A DNA stretch of 64,000 nucleotides from Cellulomonas phragmiteti (GTDB lineage Bacteria; Actinomycetota; Actinomycetes; Actinomycetales; Cellulomonadaceae): NCBI RefSeq assembly GCF_016862775.1, contig NZ_BONP01000005.1:62001-126000 (forward strand), given 5' to 3'. The position numbers and the translations under genes are program-made. Positions 3,911 through 63,272 of the stretch are shown piece after piece (within the stretch, counting starts at the first letter, position 1; every line of letters starts with the position of its first letter). The notes beneath the pieces were generated by a model. The model ran no database searches. It worked only from the letters and a program-made list of their open reading frames with translations, and had not been told where the DNA came from.

Positions 3911-4623
3911 CCGCGGCCGGGTGGACGGGCCGAGTGGTGCCCGGCGGCGAGAGCGCGGTCCGCGTGCTCGACCGCGCGGAGATCCGCACGGCGTCCGTCG
4001 GCGAGATGGACAACGACGCCTACCTCGTGACGTGCCGGCGCTCGGGCGCCCAGCTGCTCGTCGACGCCCCGACGGACCCGGACCGCCTGCTGTCCCTCGT
4101 GCGGGAGGGCGACGGGACCGGACGGCTCGACGTCCTGGTCGTCACGCACCGGCACGGCGACCACCTCGGCGCGGCCGCGGCCGTCGTCGCGCGCACGGGC
4201 GCACGGCTCGCCGCCGGGGAGCACGACGCCGACGAGGTCGGACGTGCGTGCGGCCGGACCGTCGACACGCGGCTCCGGCACGGCGACCGGCTCACCGTGG
4301 GCGACCTGGAGCTCGAGGTCGTCGCCCTGCGCGGCCACACGCCGGGGTCGGTCGCGCTCGCACTCACCGAGCCCGAGGACGCGCACGCGCCCGGCGCCAC
4401 CCCCGGGCGCGTCCACCTCTTCACCGGCGACTCGCTGTTCCCCGGCGGTGTCGGCAGCACCCAGGGCGACCCGGAACGCTTCACGCGGCTGCTCGACGAC
4501 GTGCGCACCCGGCTCTTCGACCGGTACCGGGACGACACGTGCGTGTACCCCGGGCACGGCGACGGCACCACGCTCGGTGCCGAGCGTCCGCACCTCGCGG
4601 CGTGGGCGGCGCGGGGCTGGTGA
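3907..4623 (+). CDS. MBL-fold metallo-hydrolase
   Basis: A 238-residue metallo-beta-lactamase-fold protein of the glyoxalase II-like type. The zinc ligands are visible: THRHGDH (about residue 79), GHTPGS, the bridging Asp in FTGDSLF and the final His in YPGHGDG. No signal peptide is seen, so it should act in the cytosol as a thioester or other hydrolase; the substrate cannot be read from the sequence. The GTG start overlaps the TGA of the GH15 gene by four bases, indicating a two-gene operon. Confidence 0.88.
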
Positions 4624-4690
4624 GCAGCGCACCGCGCGGCACGGGCGCACGTCCCGCCGCGTGGGGGCGCGCCTCGGGCAGGATGGTGCC

Positions 4691-4981
4691 ATGAGCACCT
4701 TCGCCGTCCGGTACACCTACGACGAGCGGGCCGAGGTCCGCGACGTGGTCCGCCCCGAGCACCGCGCCTGGTTGTCCGAGCTGGCCGCGGCCGGCGTGCT
4801 GCTGGGGTCCGGGCCGTTCACGGAGGGCACCCCCGGGGCCCTGCTGGTCCTGCAGGCGGACGACGAGAGCGCGCTGCGGTCCGTGCTGCAGCAGGACCCG
4901 TTCGCGCGCGAGGGCCTGATCGCGCAGACGGAGGTCCGCGGCTGGCACCTGGTCCTCGGCCCGTGGGCGACCGACGCCTGA
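4691..4981 (+). CDS. YciI-like family protein
   Basis: A 96-residue ferredoxin-fold protein of the YciI type (dimeric alpha+beta barrel). The pattern FAVRYTYDERAEVRDVVRPEHRAWLSELAAAGVLLGSGPF, with the conserved RPEHRAWL His and GSGPF turn, then DPFAREGL, is typical. Family members are thought to be small enzymes or enzyme modules, but the reaction is usually unknown. It stands 67 bp after the MBL gene and is convergent to the TerC pair, whose last stop is only 40 bp away. Confidence 0.85.
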   Translation: MSTFAVRYTYDERAEVRDVVRPEHRAWLSELAAAGVLLGSGPFTEGTPGALLVLQADDESALRSVLQQDPFAREGLIAQTEVRGWHLVLGPWATDA

Positions 4982-33841: not shown

Positions 33842-34687
33842 GTGCAGTCGACGACGACACCGCCGTCCCCCCGGCCCGCGGTGCGGTCCACGTACCGCAG
33901 CCTGCGCCTCGGGCTCGTGGCGATGGTCGCCATGCTCGCGACCGCCGTCGGGGTGGAGGCGGCGCGGTCAGGATGCTGGCTGGACTCCCTGAGCGCGTAC
34001 TACTGGACCGGCGCCCACGACGTCGTCGTGGGCGCCCTGAGCGCGCTCGGCGTGCTGCTCGTCGTGTACGCCGGTGCGGACGACGTCGAGGACGCGCTGC
34101 TGGACGCGGCCGGGTTCCTCGCGCTCGTCGTCGCCCTCTCCCCCACGCAACCGGGTGCCGGCTGCCCGGCGACGCGCGTGGCCGACGTGCCGGCAGCGCT
34201 CGCCGACGCCCGTACCGGCCTGACGGCGCTGGTGGTGGTCGGTCTGGTGGTCACGCTCACCCGTGCGGCGGTGGCGGTCCGCGGGGCGCCGACGGCAGGC
34301 GACCTCGCGCGGGGGGCCGCGGCCCTGGTGGTGCTGGTCCCGGCCGCGGCTCTCGTGCTCGCGCCCGATCTGCTCGTCGCGCGCGCGCACGACGCGGCGG
34401 CCGTGCTCCTCTTCGTGGCCGTCATCGGTGTCGTGGTACGCCACGCGTTCCTCGCGCGCGCCACCTCCGCCCGGTGGGCGATCGCCTACTCCGCGCTCGG
34501 TGCGCTGATGCTGCTGACGCTGTCGGTCGTCGTGGCGCTGCACGCGACGGTCCCGACGTGGACGCACGCCGTGCTCGTCGTCGAGGCCGCGCTCGTCGCG
34601 CTGTTCGCCACGTTCTGGGTGCTGCAGACGGTCGAGCTCTGGGAGGTCGACACGGTGCGGGGCCGGCCGTCCGGCCGGCCCCGCTGA
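33842..34687 (+). CDS. Uncharacterised multi-pass membrane protein
   Basis: A 281-residue protein with seven or so predicted helices and a short hydrophilic N-terminus. The stretch WLDSLSAYYWTGAHDVVVGALSALGVLLVVYAG resembles a recurring motif of uncharacterised membrane proteins (SxSAYYxTxxHDxFVG), but I cannot name a function. The GTG start has GGAGG nine bases upstream. The last nine codons form half of a GC-rich hairpin, so terminator and coding end overlap. It is convergent to the mini-protein/glycosyltransferase set, with a 49-bp gap. Confidence 0.82.
   Translation: MQSTTTPPSPRPAVRSTYRSLRLGLVAMVAMLATAVGVEAARSGCWLDSLSAYYWTGAHDVVVGALSALGVLLVVYAGADDVEDALLDAAGFLALVVALSPTQPGAGCPATRVADVPAALADARTGLTALVVVGLVVTLTRAAVAVRGAPTAGDLARGAAALVVLVPAAALVLAPDLLVARAHDAAAVLLFVAVIGVVVRHAFLARATSARWAIAYSALGALMLLTLSVVVALHATVPTWTHAVLVVEAALVALFATFWVLQTVELWEVDTVRGRPSGRPR
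34657..34684 (+). terminator. Hairpin overlapping the end of the membrane-protein gene
   Basis: GCGGGGCCGGCC and GGCCGGCCCCGC form a 12-bp perfect stem with a GTCC loop. The arms encode the final RGRPSGRPR of the protein and end directly at the stop codon. Confidence 0.5.
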
Positions 34688-34736: not shown

Positions 34737-34901
34737 TCAGCGGCCGGCGCCCGCGCGACGTGCCCTGCTGCTCAGGACGCGTGCGACGCTCACGAGCGCC
34801 AGCCCTGCCGCGAGCAGCGTCCACGTCGCGATCCACCCGAAGGCCAGGGCCGCCCCGGTCGCCGCCAGGGCTCCCGTCCCCGTGCCCGTCATCTGGTACA
34901 T
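34737..34901 (-). CDS. 54-aa mini-protein resembling a bare cell-wall sorting signal
   Basis: The product starts MYQMTGTGTGA, then has LAATG (residues 12-16), one hydrophobic helix (about 17-40) and a basic tail [14 protein letters not shown]. This is the layout of an LPXTG/LAXTG sortase signal, yet nothing precedes it except ten residues and there is no N-terminal signal peptide. It may be a small membrane protein whose LAATG is accidental, or a mini-substrate for a class E sortase. The ATG overlaps the glycosyltransferase stop by one base (TGATG) and has a GAGGAGGAG ribosome site, so translation is coupled. It is too small to be found by length-based gene calling. Confidence 0.72.
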   Translation of the reverse strand: MYQMTGTGTGALAATGAALAFGWIATWTLLAAGLALVSVARVLSSRARRAGAGR

Positions 34902-36127
34902 CACTCCTCCTCTCCTCGTGCGGCGCCGGTCGCCGCGGTCCCCACGCACGGCCGGTCGTGCGCGACGGTCAGGTGGCCCCACTGCGGGCTCCGCCCGCGC
35001 AGGTGGTACGACCACGCGTGCAGGTAGGCGCGCTGGAGCACCAGGTCGTAGACGAGCTCGGGCAGGACCAGCAGGCTGATCCACCGCGCCGTCGAGCCGC
35101 CCTCCCACACGGTCACCAGCCGCTCGACGACGAACACCGCCCCGACCGCGAGCCAGAACGGCTGCCACGCGAGGGTGCCGAGCAGGGCGGCGCCGACGGT
35201 CAGCGCGAGCAGCACCCACAGCGTCAGCGTCCCGACCGTGAGCATGAGCTGCTGCAGGTGGTACCCGGCGGTGACGCGGGTCAGCCCGTACGCGCGGAGG
35301 TTGTCCAGCATCCCCGTGTACCACCGCACACGCTGACGGTGCAGGGCCACCGTGCTGGGCATCAGCTCCGTGCGGCAGACGCACGCCGGCGGTGCGACGA
35401 GGCGCCATCCCCGCGTGCGCAGGGCCAGCGTCAGCTCCGAGTCCTCGGTGATGGCCCCGCGGTCGTAGACGTCGCCGGCACGGCCGGGCAGCGCCGACCC
35501 GCGCGCGCACGCCACGTCCCGCAGGGCGGCGTACCGGAAGACCGACGCGGTGCCCGTCACGACGCTGACACGCCCCGTCGAGCCGATCTTCGCGGCGTAG
35601 CGCGTGTACTCGTTGGCCTGGCACCGCTGCAGCCAGCCGTGCGCCCCCGGGCCGAGGAAGATCCCGCTCGCCGCACCCAGCCGCGGGTCGGCGTCGAGCC
35701 GCGACAGGGCCGTCTCGACGAACCGCGGGCCGATCACGGTGTCCGCGTCCAGCACCATGACGTAGTCCGGCGGGGCGTCCACGAGCACGGCCAGCGACTG
35801 GTTGAGCGCCCCCGCCTTGCGGTCCGCGTTGTCGCGCGTGGTGAGGACGTGGGCGCCGTGCGCGCGTGCGACGGCGGCGGTGCCGTCGGTGCAGCGGTCG
35901 GCCACGACCACGACGTGGGCGGGCCGGTACGTCTGGTCACGCACCGCGCGCAGCACCGTCGGCAGCGCCGCCTCCTCGTCGTGGGCGGGGACCAGCACGA
36001 CGAGCCGGGCGCGCGGGACCGTCCGGCACGCGGTCCGCCGGGGTGGGCGGCTCGTCGCGTGCGTCCGTGCGGCGTGGTGACGGCGCGTCGCGACGTGCGG
36101 GCGCGGCGCGACAGCGGCATCGGTCAT
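34901..36127 (-). CDS. Family 2 glycosyltransferase, membrane-bound
   Basis: A 408-residue processive-type GT2. The nucleotide-sugar fold has LVVLVPAHDEEAALPTVLRAV, VVADRCTDGT, the DXD (VLDADTVI), the catalytic ED (ITEDSELTLAL) and the HRQRVRW element, which resembles the QxxRW motif of cellulose/hyaluronan/poly-GlcNAc synthases. Two to three membrane helices follow (about 300-370). It probably elongates an extracellular polysaccharide or decorates the envelope; the sugar is unknown. The ATG giving MTDAAVAPRPH has GGAGG five bases upstream. It lies downstream of a LuxR regulator and is coupled to the 54-aa mini-protein. Confidence 0.9.
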   Translation of the reverse strand: MTDAAVAPRPHVATRRHHAARTHATSRPPRRTACRTVPRARLVVLVPAHDEEAALPTVLRAVRDQTYRPAHVVVVADRCTDGTAAVARAHGAHVLTTRDNADRKAGALNQSLAVLVDAPPDYVMVLDADTVIGPRFVETALSRLDADPRLGAASGIFLGPGAHGWLQRCQANEYTRYAAKIGSTGRVSVVTGTASVFRYAALRDVACARGSALPGRAGDVYDRGAITEDSELTLALRTRGWRLVAPPACVCRTELMPSTVALHRQRVRWYTGMLDNLRAYGLTRVTAGYHLQQLMLTVGTLTLWVLLALTVGAALLGTLAWQPFWLAVGAVFVVERLVTVWEGGSTARWISLLVLPELVYDLVLQRAYLHAWSYHLRGRSPQWGHLTVAHDRPCVGTAATGAARGEEE

Positions 36128-36328
36128 GGCGTCCTCCGGGTGCTCCGGCACCCGGTCCTCGCGGCTCCGCCGGGTGCGTCACCCCCATGCCACGCGCTCC
36201 GGACGACCACTCAGGGCCGGCAGGTCCCGGGGCGAGCAGGCGGGCGGGGAGATGGAGCGGGTCGACCCCGCGCGGCGAGCAGCGCGCGCGGCGGCACTCA
36301 GCCGGCGGGGTGCCGCGAGGCGGCGACC

Positions 36329-38857
36329 TCAGGCCAGACGGCGCGCCAGCCCCTCGCGGTCCGTGACGCCCAGCTTGCGGTAGATCCGGTACAGGTGGTT
36401 GTCGACCGTGCGCACCGACACCCCGAGCGCGGCGGCGACCTCCCGGTTCTGCGCGCCCGCCGCCACGCGGCGCGCCACCTCGACCTCGCGGGCGGACAAC
36501 GACGCGACCGGCCCGACGAGGGCCAGGAGGCGGTCCAGGTCACCCCGGGCTCCTCGCGCCACGTCCTCCGCGCCGGCGAGGTACCGACCTGCGGAGCCGG
36601 CGTCACCGGCCAGCGTGGCCAGGTGCGCGGCCCGGGCGTAGGCGCGGACCGCGTGGACCGGCAGGCCGCAGCCGCGGAGCTCGTCGGCCACGTCGGCCAG
36701 CCGTGCCGCGGGCCCCTCGGCGACGGCCGACACGTAGCGGCCGAGCGCCGGCAGCACCGCCCCCTGGGCGCCCGCGGACGCGGCCGCGACCCGCAGCGCC
36801 GCCGGGTGGTCGACGGCGACGTCGACCGCTGCACTCGCCGCCAGCACCGCTGCGGTGACGCAGCCGCGATCGAGCAGGGCGTCCACCTCGAGCCACGTGC
36901 CGTGCGCCGCCGCTGCGCCGAGGTCCCCCGCCGCGACCGCCGCCTGCGCCTGCGCGACACCCGCCGACGCGAGCGGCACCGGTCCCAGCGGCAGCGCCGT
37001 CGCCGTGACCTGGTCCGCCATGGCCCGCGCCGGGACCGTCCGCCCGTCGTTGGCCGCCAGCGACGCGCCGATCGTCAGGAGCGCCGCACGCGCGTGCGGC
37101 GCGAAGGGCGCGCACGCCCCCACCGCGAGGCTGGCCCACAGGTGCTCGCGCAGGGCGCGGCTGCGGCCGGCGAGCGCGAGGCACAGCGCGAGGACGTACG
37201 CGCACGACTCGACGGCGGCACCGTCGAGGGCGGAACGCGCCTCCGCGAGCAGCCGCGAGGCGTGCTGCACCGCTGCCTCGACACGTCCGTCGAGCAGCTC
37301 GGCGATGACGGCGGCCGGCCGGGGGTCGACGCGCAGCGGGTCGTGAGCGGTGGGCTCGCCGCTCAGCACGTCCGCCGCGTCGACGACCCGTCCGGCCGCC
37401 AGCAGCGACCACCCCCGGACGTAGCGGTCCTCGGGACGGTCCGAGCCGGGCGTCGTCGCGGTGGGCACCGGGCCCGTACCGAGGAACAGGTCGATGCGCC
37501 GCCGGGTGTCGTCCAGGACCGCGGTCCGCTCCGTGGCGGTCGACCCGACGAGCACGCGGCGGGCCGCACCGGGGTCACGCTCCACGCAGGCGAGCCGCAG
37601 CGCCCGCCACGACTCCACGACGGGGACGCCGTCCGGGTCCAGGTGCGTGATGACCTCGTCCTCCACGGCCTCGAGGAGGGCAGCGCCGGAGCCCGCCTCG
37701 AGCAGCGCGTTGAGCCACAGGAGCCCCGAGGTCGTCGACGGCGCCGCGGCCCACTCGTCGCGGCGCTGGTCCACCCGGGTCGCCCGCGACCGCCGCAGAC
37801 GACGGCCGAGGACGGCTGCCTCGTCGCGCGACGTCCCCCACTCCGACGGCATCTGCGCTCCCCCGCGCGACGCCACCGCGACCTGTCCGGCGGGCCGCTC
37901 CACCTCACGGGTGACGCGCCGCCGGGTGCGCACCAGCCGCTCCCGCCCCGGCGCCGCGGTGAGGTGCTCGGCCACCAGCGGCGGTGTCACGACGACCTCG
38001 TCACGGTCACCGAGGTCCAGCACCCGCAGCAGGCCCGCGTCCTCGAGCGCGACGAGGGTGCGCCACGGCACGACCCGACGGGCCACGACGGGCTCGACAG
38101 GTCCGAGCACGGCCAGCGTCTCCAGGGCCCGCAGCTCCCGGCCGCCGAGACCGGCCAGGAGGCGGTCGACCGTGCCGACGAGCTCCGCCGAGCGCACCTC
38201 GCCCACGGCCGACCACACGCCGCCCTGCAGGACGAGGCGACCGTCGCGGCGTGCTCCGTGCAGGATCGCCCGCGCCAGGCCGGGCAGACCCCCGGACAAG
38301 CCGTAGACGCGGCTGACGAGGTCGACGTCCGCGCGGCCGGCGAGCTCACGGTGCACCAGGACCTGCATCTCGTCGAAGCGCAGGGGCGCGGCCTCCCAGC
38401 TGCACACGGTCAGGTCACCGGTGGACCGCAGGGCCGCCGTGCGGCACGCCCGTCCCGGGGACGACGTCACCAGGACACCGAGCCGGCTCGCGCCGGCGGC
38501 GGCCACCACGGCGGCCGTGTCGGCGTCGACGAGGTCCGCGTGCCGCACGAGCACGACACCCCGCCCCGGGCCGGCGCCGTCCACCAGGCGCGCCACGCCT
38601 GCGGCGTACGCGTCGGCGGTCGCGCCGCGCGGGCTCATGCCGCCGAGCGCGAGGGCGGCGAAGGCGCGGCCGGAGACCCCGATGCTCCCCCTGAGCCGGA
38701 CGACGTGCCAGCCGTCGTCCCCCAGGCGTGCGGCGGCCCGCTCCGCCAGGTCCCACGCCCCTGCGCCCGCCAGGCCGGTGAGCAGGACGGCCGAGCCCCC
38801 GCACAGGGCGTCGACGGCGCCCTCGACGACGACGTCGCGCGCGGAGGGCCCCAGCAT
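36329..38857 (-). CDS. LuxR-family regulator with degenerate ATPase domain
   Basis: An 842-residue protein of the large LuxR/MalT-like type. The last 63 residues are a LuxR HTH (SLSAREVEVARRVAAGAQNREVAAALGVSVRTVDNHLYRIYRKLGV). The N-terminus resembles a STAND/AAA ATPase, but the P-loop position reads GLAGAGAW (28-35) with Ala and Trp in place of Lys and Ser/Thr, so ATP hydrolysis is doubtful. The middle is Ala-rich helical repeat, likely a TPR-like sensor region. The regulated target is probably the adjacent glycosyltransferase and mini-protein downstream on the same strand. The start is the ATG giving MLGPSARDVVVEG. Confidence 0.88.
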   Translation of the reverse strand: MLGPSARDVVVEGAVDALCGGSAVLLTGLAGAGAWDLAERAAARLGDDGWHVVRLRGSIGVSGRAFAALALGGMSPRGATADAYAAGVARLVDGAGPGRGVVLVRHADLVDADTAAVVAAAGASRLGVLVTSSPGRACRTAALRSTGDLTVCSWEAAPLRFDEMQVLVHRELAGRADVDLVSRVYGLSGGLPGLARAILHGARRDGRLVLQGGVWSAVGEVRSAELVGTVDRLLAGLGGRELRALETLAVLGPVEPVVARRVVPWRTLVALEDAGLLRVLDLGDRDEVVVTPPLVAEHLTAAPGRERLVRTRRRVTREVERPAGQVAVASRGGAQMPSEWGTSRDEAAVLGRRLRRSRATRVDQRRDEWAAAPSTTSGLLWLNALLEAGSGAALLEAVEDEVITHLDPDGVPVVESWRALRLACVERDPGAARRVLVGSTATERTAVLDDTRRRIDLFLGTGPVPTATTPGSDRPEDRYVRGWSLLAAGRVVDAADVLSGEPTAHDPLRVDPRPAAVIAELLDGRVEAAVQHASRLLAEARSALDGAAVESCAYVLALCLALAGRSRALREHLWASLAVGACAPFAPHARAALLTIGASLAANDGRTVPARAMADQVTATALPLGPVPLASAGVAQAQAAVAAGDLGAAAAHGTWLEVDALLDRGCVTAAVLAASAAVDVAVDHPAALRVAAASAGAQGAVLPALGRYVSAVAEGPAARLADVADELRGCGLPVHAVRAYARAAHLATLAGDAGSAGRYLAGAEDVARGARGDLDRLLALVGPVASLSAREVEVARRVAAGAQNREVAAALGVSVRTVDNHLYRIYRKLGVTDREGLARRLA

Positions 38858-61910: not shown

Positions 61911-63272
61911 TCACATCGACTCGATGAGCCGGTCGACCCGCTCGTCGACGCTGCGGAACGGGTCCTTGCACAGCACGGTGCGCTGCGCCTGGTCGTTGAG
62001 CTTGAGGTGGACCCAGTCCACCGTGTAGTCGCGCCGTGCGTCCTGCGCCGCCCGCACGAAGTCGCCGCGCAGCTTGGCCCGCGTCGTCTGCGGGGGGACG
62101 GCCGTCGCCTCGAAGACGTCGAGGTCGGTCGTGACCCGCTCGACGAGCCCACGCGCGGCGAGCAGGTTGTACAGGCCCTCGGTGCGCGAGATGTCGTGGT
62201 AGGCGAGATCGAGGCGCTGCACGCGCACGTCCGACAGCGCCAGGTCGTGCTTGGCGCGGTACCGCTCGATCATCTGGTGCTTGATGACCCAGTCGAGCTC
62301 GCGCTCCACGAGCGTGAGGTCGCCGGTGCGCAGCGCGCGCAGCCCGCGCTCCCACAGGTCCAGCACCTGCTTGGTCTCGGGCGACGGCCCCACCTCGGCG
62401 GTGACGAAGTCGCTGACCCGCGTGAGGTACTCCTCCTGCAGGTCGATCGCGGTCACCGTGCGGCCCGTCGCCAGCGTCACGGGCTGCTTCCCGGTCATGT
62501 CGTGGCTGATCTCGCGGATCGCCCGGATCGGGTTCTCCAGCGTCATGTCCCGCATGGTCACGCCCGCCTCGATGAGGCGCAGCAGGAGATCGGTGGAGCC
62601 GACCTTGAGCATCGTGGTGGTCTCGGACATCGACGAGTCGCCCACGATCACGTGCAGGCGCCGGTAGTGCTCGGCGTCCGCGTGCGGCTCGTCGCGCGTG
62701 TTGATGATCGGTCGTGACCGGGTCGTCGCGCTGGAGACCGCCTCCCAGATGTGGTCGGCCCGCTGCGACAGGCAGTACACGGCGCCGCGGGGTGTGGCGA
62801 GCACCTTGCCCGCACCGGTGAGGATCTGCCGCGTGATGAGGAACGGCACCAGGACGTCCGACAGCCGGGCGAAGTCCCCCTGACGGCGCACGAGGTAGTT
62901 CTCGTGGCAGCCGTAGGAGTTGCCGGCCGAGTCGGTGTTGTTCTTGAACAGGTGGATGCGTCCGGGCAGGCCCTCGTGCTCGAGCCGCTGCTGGGCGTCC
63001 TCGACGAGTCCCTCGAGGATCCGCTCGCCGGCGCGGTCGTGCGTCACCAGCTGGCGCCAGTCGTCGCACTCGGCCGTCGCGTACTCGGGGTGCGACCCGA
63101 CGTCGAGGTAGAGCCGCGACCCGTTGCGCAGGAACACGTTCGACGACCGGCCCCAGGCCACGACCTTGCGGAACAGGTAGCGCGCGACCTCGTCGGCGGA
63201 CAGCCCGCGGCCGTCCTGGGCCGCGCACGTGACCCCGTACTCGGTCTCGAGACCGAAGATGCGTCTGTCCAT
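61911..63272 (-). CDS. pafA: Pup-protein ligase
   Basis: A 453-residue enzyme that joins Pup to lysines of substrate proteins, marking them for the proteasome. The N-terminal [14 protein letters not shown] is the hallmark of PafA/Dop with the Mg-ATP-binding Glu residues. [23 protein letters not shown] and [18 protein letters not shown] follow. The C-terminal [29 protein letters not shown] is characteristic of PafA. The start [13 protein letters not shown] is the usual one. It is 41 bases downstream of the proteasome alpha gene. Confidence 0.97.

Follow-up and report, generated by a model that had tools for sequence, protein, structure and literature searches.

In a window of 64,000 nucleotides of Cellulomonas phragmiteti DNA (the whole stretch analyzed, positions 62,001 to 126,000 of contig NZ_BONP01000005.1), a mini-protein of 54 amino acids is encoded directly behind a family 2 glycosyltransferase (GT2). 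The reading that we favor, with moderate confidence, is that this mini-protein has two roles, as a single-helix partner dedicated to the GT2, a membrane polysaccharide synthase, and as a bare sortase substrate. On the grounds of linkage, co-occurrence and natural fusion the helix is a partner of the GT2, and a physical complex of the two is predicted; where its motif is kept, the mini-protein is probably a sorting signal, for which cleavage is predicted. The original prediction had placed three minus-strand genes together, a LuxR-type regulator, a GT2 and a 54-residue frame, and these were confirmed as follows.

34737..34901, minus strand: mini-protein gene, 54 amino acids, recognized by its database relatives and by its nonsynonymous and synonymous substitution rates (dN/dS)
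34854..34868, minus strand: LAATG, putative class E-type sorting motif, residues 12-16, its L, A, T and G invariant in 39 of 39 aligned proteins
34782..34853, minus strand: predicted hydrophobic helix, spanning residues 17-40 by eye; W27, T28, L29, A32, G33 and A35 are conserved
34740..34781, minus strand: basic C-terminal tail, residues 41-54, expected to be cytoplasmic from K/R counts in 39 proteins
34904..34917, minus strand: GAGGAGAGGAGGAG, a ribosome-binding stretch rich in purines within the 3' end of the GT2 gene, read from the sequence
34901..36151, minus strand: GT2 glycosyltransferase gene, 416 amino acids counted from GTG, with PF13641, PF13632 and PF00535
36329..38857, minus strand: regulator gene, 842 amino acids, with a C-terminal GerE/LuxR helix-turn-helix domain (Pfam)

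The layout of the mini-protein was as first described, with MYQMTGTGTGA preceding LAATG, then a single hydrophobic stretch and a basic tail, and its ATG shares one base with the TGA of the GT2 gene (TGATG), preceded by the ribosome site GAGGAGAGGAGGAG. No Pfam family matched it at E<=1 when the query was entered without the first Met, so there was no match to a PgaD/IcaD-type subunit. A profile built from six relatives recovered 39 database proteins, the mini-protein of the window included, with Cellulomonas, Microbacterium, Cellulosimicrobium, Isoptericola and Oerskovia among the named sources. When these 39 were aligned, columns L12, A13, T15, G16, W27, L29, A32, G33, A35 and R41 were invariant, the x of LAxTG at position 14 took six residues (T, A, L, V, S and M; entropy 2.1 bits), and positions 5-9 and most of 17-22 drifted; the retention of LAxTG amid drifting neighbors, proposed beforehand as a check, was thus observed among these window-type proteins. 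Lysine and arginine were absent before the tail and numbered 3-9 within it in every one of the 39, so the protein is expected to lie with its N-terminus outside and its C-terminus inside. Between the window mini-protein and three relatives the proportion of synonymous differences (pS) was 0.55-0.59 and that of nonsynonymous differences (pN) 0.26-0.34 over 46 codons, and all 14 other close pairs compared had dN lower than dS. With its database relatives, conserved motif columns and purifying selection, the 54-amino-acid frame is a real gene. One homologue of 55 amino acids (P0014) is publicly named 'thaumatin family protein', apparently through a wrong transfer.

With respect to the GT2, the DXD, ED and QRxRW elements reported for it were present as DAD, TED and QRVRW, and DxD, TED and QRxR(W) were invariant or at least 90% conserved among 42 aligned GT2 sequences. 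By eye, the window GT2 has no N-terminal membrane helix and its helices are C-terminal. Its AlphaFold model (predicted local distance difference test score, pLDDT, 85.6) was most similar in the PDB to the Chlorella virus hyaluronan synthase, with a template modeling (TM) score of 0.63 by query, followed by an archaeal mannosyltransferase and then cellulose synthase. The top NCBIfam score was to PgaC, at 77.7 bits and far under the cut-off of 422.3. By its motifs and modeled fold the GT2 is of the processive type of hyaluronan synthase, cellulose synthase and PgaC, and is predicted to make a polymer. Small partner proteins accompany other processive GT2 synthases, as in PgaC-PgaD and IcaA-IcaD. 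The likeness to these pairs is that the gene of a small membrane protein lies next to that of a DXD/TED/QRxRW GT2, but the window mini-protein differs from PgaD and IcaD in having one helix, no Pfam match and a sortase motif in addition.

Among ten close GT2 loci (at least 57% identity, window included) the mini-protein adjoins the GT2 in seven. A mini-anchored search of 396 genomes of the order gave seven strong places, six of which adjoin a GT2, a count that takes in the window's own and that of G700, where the mini-protein lies upstream of a broken-frame GT2. Six of 21 weaker places were inspected: three held mini-proteins beside or near a GT2 (L079, L080, L084), two were the ends of long surface proteins and one was without the motif. 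In a phylum sample of 326 genomes, a GT2 from a Streptomyces-like genome retrieved 15 loci in 14 genomes, the query having itself come from a mini-protein search and both the query and window loci being among the 15. An adjacent partner was present in 14 of these loci and the remaining one has a broken GT2 frame. L[AP]xTG occurred in 10 of the 15 (LPITG, LAFTG, LAYTG, LPETG three times, LPDTG, LAHTG and LAATG twice); the other partners carried LTYAG in one case and a motif-less helix, here called type B, in three.

A wider view was provided by a GT2-anchored scan of genome contigs, for which 80 loci were kept, the best 80 of 530. The GT2/mini pair sought in other actinobacterial genomes was found there, and a partner helix accompanied the GT2 in 80 of 80 kept loci: 52 as a separate mini-protein with an MY start (MY-type), 25 as a separate type B helix and three fused (L257, L281 and, by eye, L282). 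The script that searched for small frames behind the GT2 favored MY starts and the motif, and loci that it missed were read by eye. L[AP]xTG was kept in 32 of the 52 MY-type mini-proteins, a fairer share than the 86 of 89 proteins with LAxTG from two mini-protein searches, both of which were seeded with LAxTG sequences. LAxTG and LPxTG both occur, the latter in L187, L188, L189, L190, L251 and L258, and type B mostly retains LP and not TG. A quick tree of the GT2s (110 rows, several of its long branches flagged; L282, L101 and L103 unlabelled) gathered the type B and fused forms, 38 rows in all, into one group with support 90, and across the 107 labelled rows motif presence called for eight changes. 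L249 (LADTG) resembles both helix types, with E 3e-7 to the type B and fused forms and 3e-5 to MY-type. The homology of MY-type and type B rests on this intermediate, since their direct comparison was weak; the two were not shown directly to be one family (hhalign probability 13 and 30; 3 for window-type mini-proteins). In L258 (Nocardioides sp. Root140), a 135-amino-acid frame at 4563-4970 has an MY start and a full LPNTG-helix-basic signal followed by a separate type-B-like helix.

A class E sortase, whose presence in the genome had been named as a check, was found in the window genome (L001, NF033747, 252.4 bits against a cut-off of 160). Sortases within the GT2 loci were found by tblastn with four sortases and classed by NCBIfam models. 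A class E-type sortase lies directly behind GT2 and mini-protein in L187, L244 and L277, which represent three lineages, and farther down in L280, and in L251 a mini-sortase pair is divergent from the GT2; scores in the linked loci ranged from 152.7 to 217.1 bits against the same cut-off. Twelve further loci, all with motif-less mini-proteins, carry a class F-type sortase, this class being given by NCBIfam in five of the five put to it (L223, L226, L229, L230, L240) and by tblastn similarity in the other seven. Sortase, GT2 and mini-protein are consecutive in L230, L232, L235 and L240. Nocardioides terrigena is a carrier of the GT2-mini-sortase set, and Arthrobacter or Microbacterium of the pair with LAMTG. 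Sortase genes were present in 16 of 52 MY-type loci versus 0 of 27 type-B and fused loci (Fisher p 7e-4, a value that treats related loci as independent, with L282 outside the 27 and the count leaving out L234, where a sortase match at the locus end is partial). The motif-less MY-type loci had a sortase in 12 of 20 cases (p 2e-6 versus type B and fused). For the background rate, 33 other genomes of about 138 Mb held 124 sortase matches, which, summed by hand, amount to about 0.7% per 8-kb locus, and at this rate the four sortase-linked loci among the 32 bearing the motif have a probability of about 8e-5. In L194 (G713) and L196 (G739) an exosortase-family gene stands beside an LAxTG mini-protein and GT2; a UDP-GlcNAc 2-epimerase is encoded close by. 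Within the genus around G325, which is Streptomyces-like, one of 101 genomes surveyed had a sortase-linked GT2, G325 itself, so this form is rare in that sample. The SPWLG and APFxG mini-proteins that adjoin the class F-type sortase in the 12 loci (L223-L245) belong to Actinomadura and kin, and these sequences are possibly a changed recognition motif.

The reading as a sorting signal is supported by the motif pattern together with this sortase linkage, and it is limited because the motif is lost in 20 of 52 MY-type mini-proteins, there is no signal peptide, and most of the sortase-linked loci among the 80 are motif-less. These and the following observations count against the combined role. The 20 mini-proteins without L[AP]xTG (LTYAG, SPWLG, APFxG and others) come mainly from Actinomadura, Microtetraspora, Nonomuraea and Planotetraspora; the type B and fused forms are also without it, and the direct profile comparison of MY-type with type B reached an hhalign probability of only 30. 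No N-terminal signal peptide is present, as only 11 residues precede the motif, and export must therefore use N-tail translocation; one lysine or arginine was found in each of 12 N-tails of distant mini-proteins, a count that leaves out the 97-amino-acid protein P0088. The product of sortase cleavage would be only about 15 residues long, and the helix is conserved as strongly as the motif, a degree of conservation that a sorting signal does not require. There was no sortase match on the contig of the window, and the sortases of L244 (155.7 bits) and L280 (152.7) score slightly under the class E cut-off. Motif-bearing mini-proteins account for four of the 16 sortase-linked loci and motif-less ones for 12; the motif-bearing share, 4 of 32 versus 0 of 27 for type B and fused, was not significant (two-sided p 0.12), and by eye the 16 loci and L187 make up about five lineages on the tree.

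Several of these observations favor the view that the mini-protein is an accessory subunit only, a one-helix scaffold of the synthase in which LAxTG caps the helix or serves as a packing motif and goes unread by sortase. This is possible, and we regard it as rather unlikely. The helix, the MY start and the GT2 neighbor remain in the 20 of 52 MY-type loci where the motif has gone, the three naturally fused forms agree with it, as does the retention of LP without TG in most of type B, and motif-bearing loci are not significantly enriched in sortases over type-B and fused loci. A packing motif, however, would not predict that LAxTG alternates with LPxTG while the third position stays free, that 16 of 52 MY-type loci and none of 27 others hold sortase genes, or that GT2, mini-protein and sortase stand in a row in three lineages. 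The original prediction had offered an accessory subunit or a sortase E signal as alternatives; the strict choice between them did not hold and a joint version was supported. It had also named, as an outcome that would count against it, a small frame that is not conserved or a helix kept while its motif varies: the small frame proved conserved, but the helix was kept without L[AP]xTG in the 20 MY-type, the type B and the fused cases.

Under the combined role of partner and sortase substrate, the mini-protein would insert without a signal peptide, N-terminus out and C-terminus in, beside the C-terminal helices of the GT2 and at the exit of the nascent glycan. A sortase, of class E in the window genome, would read LAxTG there, cut between T and G, and couple the short MY...LAT peptide from the N-terminus to lipid II or another amine. 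Sortase action would thereby be tied to the glycan exit site, and may either anchor the product or act on the synthase, switching or releasing it. Lineages in which the motif was lost or the helix fused would be left with the subunit role alone, or with a changed motif.

An extension of this scheme, which we hold to be unlikely and put forward tentatively, is a sortase-coupled glycan synthase in which the sortase joins the glycan to peptidoglycan via the N-terminal peptide of the mini-protein. Attachment of the glycan is proposed on the conserved Tyr2, on another residue of the N-terminal peptide, or with an amino sugar as the nucleophile. If true, polysaccharide and wall would be joined covalently by a sortase on a protein primer, with class E, class F or exosortase exchanged together with the motif between lineages. 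Sortases are known for protein display and pilus building, and a GT2-helix-sortase set would add polysaccharide assembly in Actinobacteria; such a set would also give a role to small genes that are annotated as hypothetical or missed.

It is improbable that the mini-protein works as a sorting-signal peptide free of the GT2, acting as a decoy or timer for sortase or as a tag linked to the wall, and that the two genes have no more than an operon in common. Such a role would suit the mini-proteins that are not beside a GT2, namely the seventh strong place in the order, an extra copy in G535, and those of G009 and G073, where an intact GT2 is without a neighboring mini-protein and a full-length one lies elsewhere in the genome; yet all three genomes still carry the GT2. 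The GT2 of G019 (L104 / L011), moreover, is decayed, having lost the second D of DAD and QRxRW with no stop, and no full-length mini-protein was found in that genome, the single match being weak (26 bits), while the fused forms join the helix to the GT2 itself. The extra copy in G535 (L094, 8776-8949, LAMTG) has by eye a 437-amino-acid protein and a metF-like gene as neighbors. That the small frame arose by chance or has no function, as many open frames arise in GC-rich DNA, is refuted for practical purposes by its database relatives, purifying selection, ribosome site and co-occurrence with the GT2.

Comparison with known families placed the mini-protein near NF058583 (LAXTG_small_WW), which like it comprises proteins of 50-60 amino acids with an MY start, LAxTG, a single helix and a basic tail. 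While P0077, P0079 and P0082 score 77.5-94.5 bits on this model, above its cut-off of 65, the window mini-protein scores 19.8 bits (without its Met) and 21.2 bits, and by this sequence comparison is a distant, sub-threshold relative of the family. None of 396 genomes of the phylum sample gave an NF058583 match over the cut-off; when weak matches at 18 loci were checked for the motif, most of those shown were the ends of longer frames and L044 was a true mini-protein. The name of NF058583 mentions no link to a GT2 or sortase gene. A second family, NF053846, is the XrtP-associated glycosyltransferase (exosortases XrtP/R/S), in which, as here, a GT2 adjoins a sorting peptidase. The GT2 of L194 belongs fully to it, at 648.7 bits against a cut-off of 520; an LAYTG mini-protein is directly upstream and the exosortase-like gene downstream. 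The window GT2 reaches only 35.5 bits. The exosortase-like genes of L194 and L196 score under the XrtP/R/S cut-offs, and no exosortase was seen in window-type loci.

Chaplins have a signal peptide and a displayed domain, and the mini-protein is without either. Of the features of a class E substrate it has LAxTG, the helix with basic tail and a class E sortase in the genome, but not the signal peptide. The PEP-CTERM/EpsH system employs an exosortase and a different motif and belongs to Gram-negative envelopes; it resembles the present case in linking protein sorting with exopolysaccharide and differs in these three respects. In published work, class E sortases read LAXTG, the motif that Streptomyces chaplins, as class E sortase substrates, share with the mini-protein (PMC5148588), protein sorting is tied to exopolysaccharide in PEP-CTERM/EpsH (PMC1569441), class F sortases and LAxTG substrates occur in Streptomyces biosynthetic clusters (PMC6998099), and a class E sortase occurs in Actinoplanes (PMC13251363). 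Our literature search found no description of a GT2 with an LAxTG mini-protein or of a GT2-mini-sortase set. The LAXTG_small_WW and XrtP-associated glycosyltransferase families are already known, and what the pairing points to is a possible new connection of glycan synthesis with the cell wall.

As to the surroundings of the pair, the LuxR-type gene, which had been proposed as part of the same unit, lies upstream of the GT2, with 177 bases between its end and the GT2 gene. A regulator accompanies the GT2 in 8 of the 10 close loci, but none was seen beside the GT2 in the four other-genus loci inspected (L093, L095, L096, L098); for this reason it is not counted in the wider unit and was dropped as a core member. 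The regulator is also absent from the GT2 locus of G019. On the other side, convergent with the mini-protein gene, positions 33842-34687 of the window (plus strand) encode a multi-helix membrane protein of 281 amino acids, with no Pfam match at E<=0.001, and a reading similar to this protein was found downstream of the G019 GT2.

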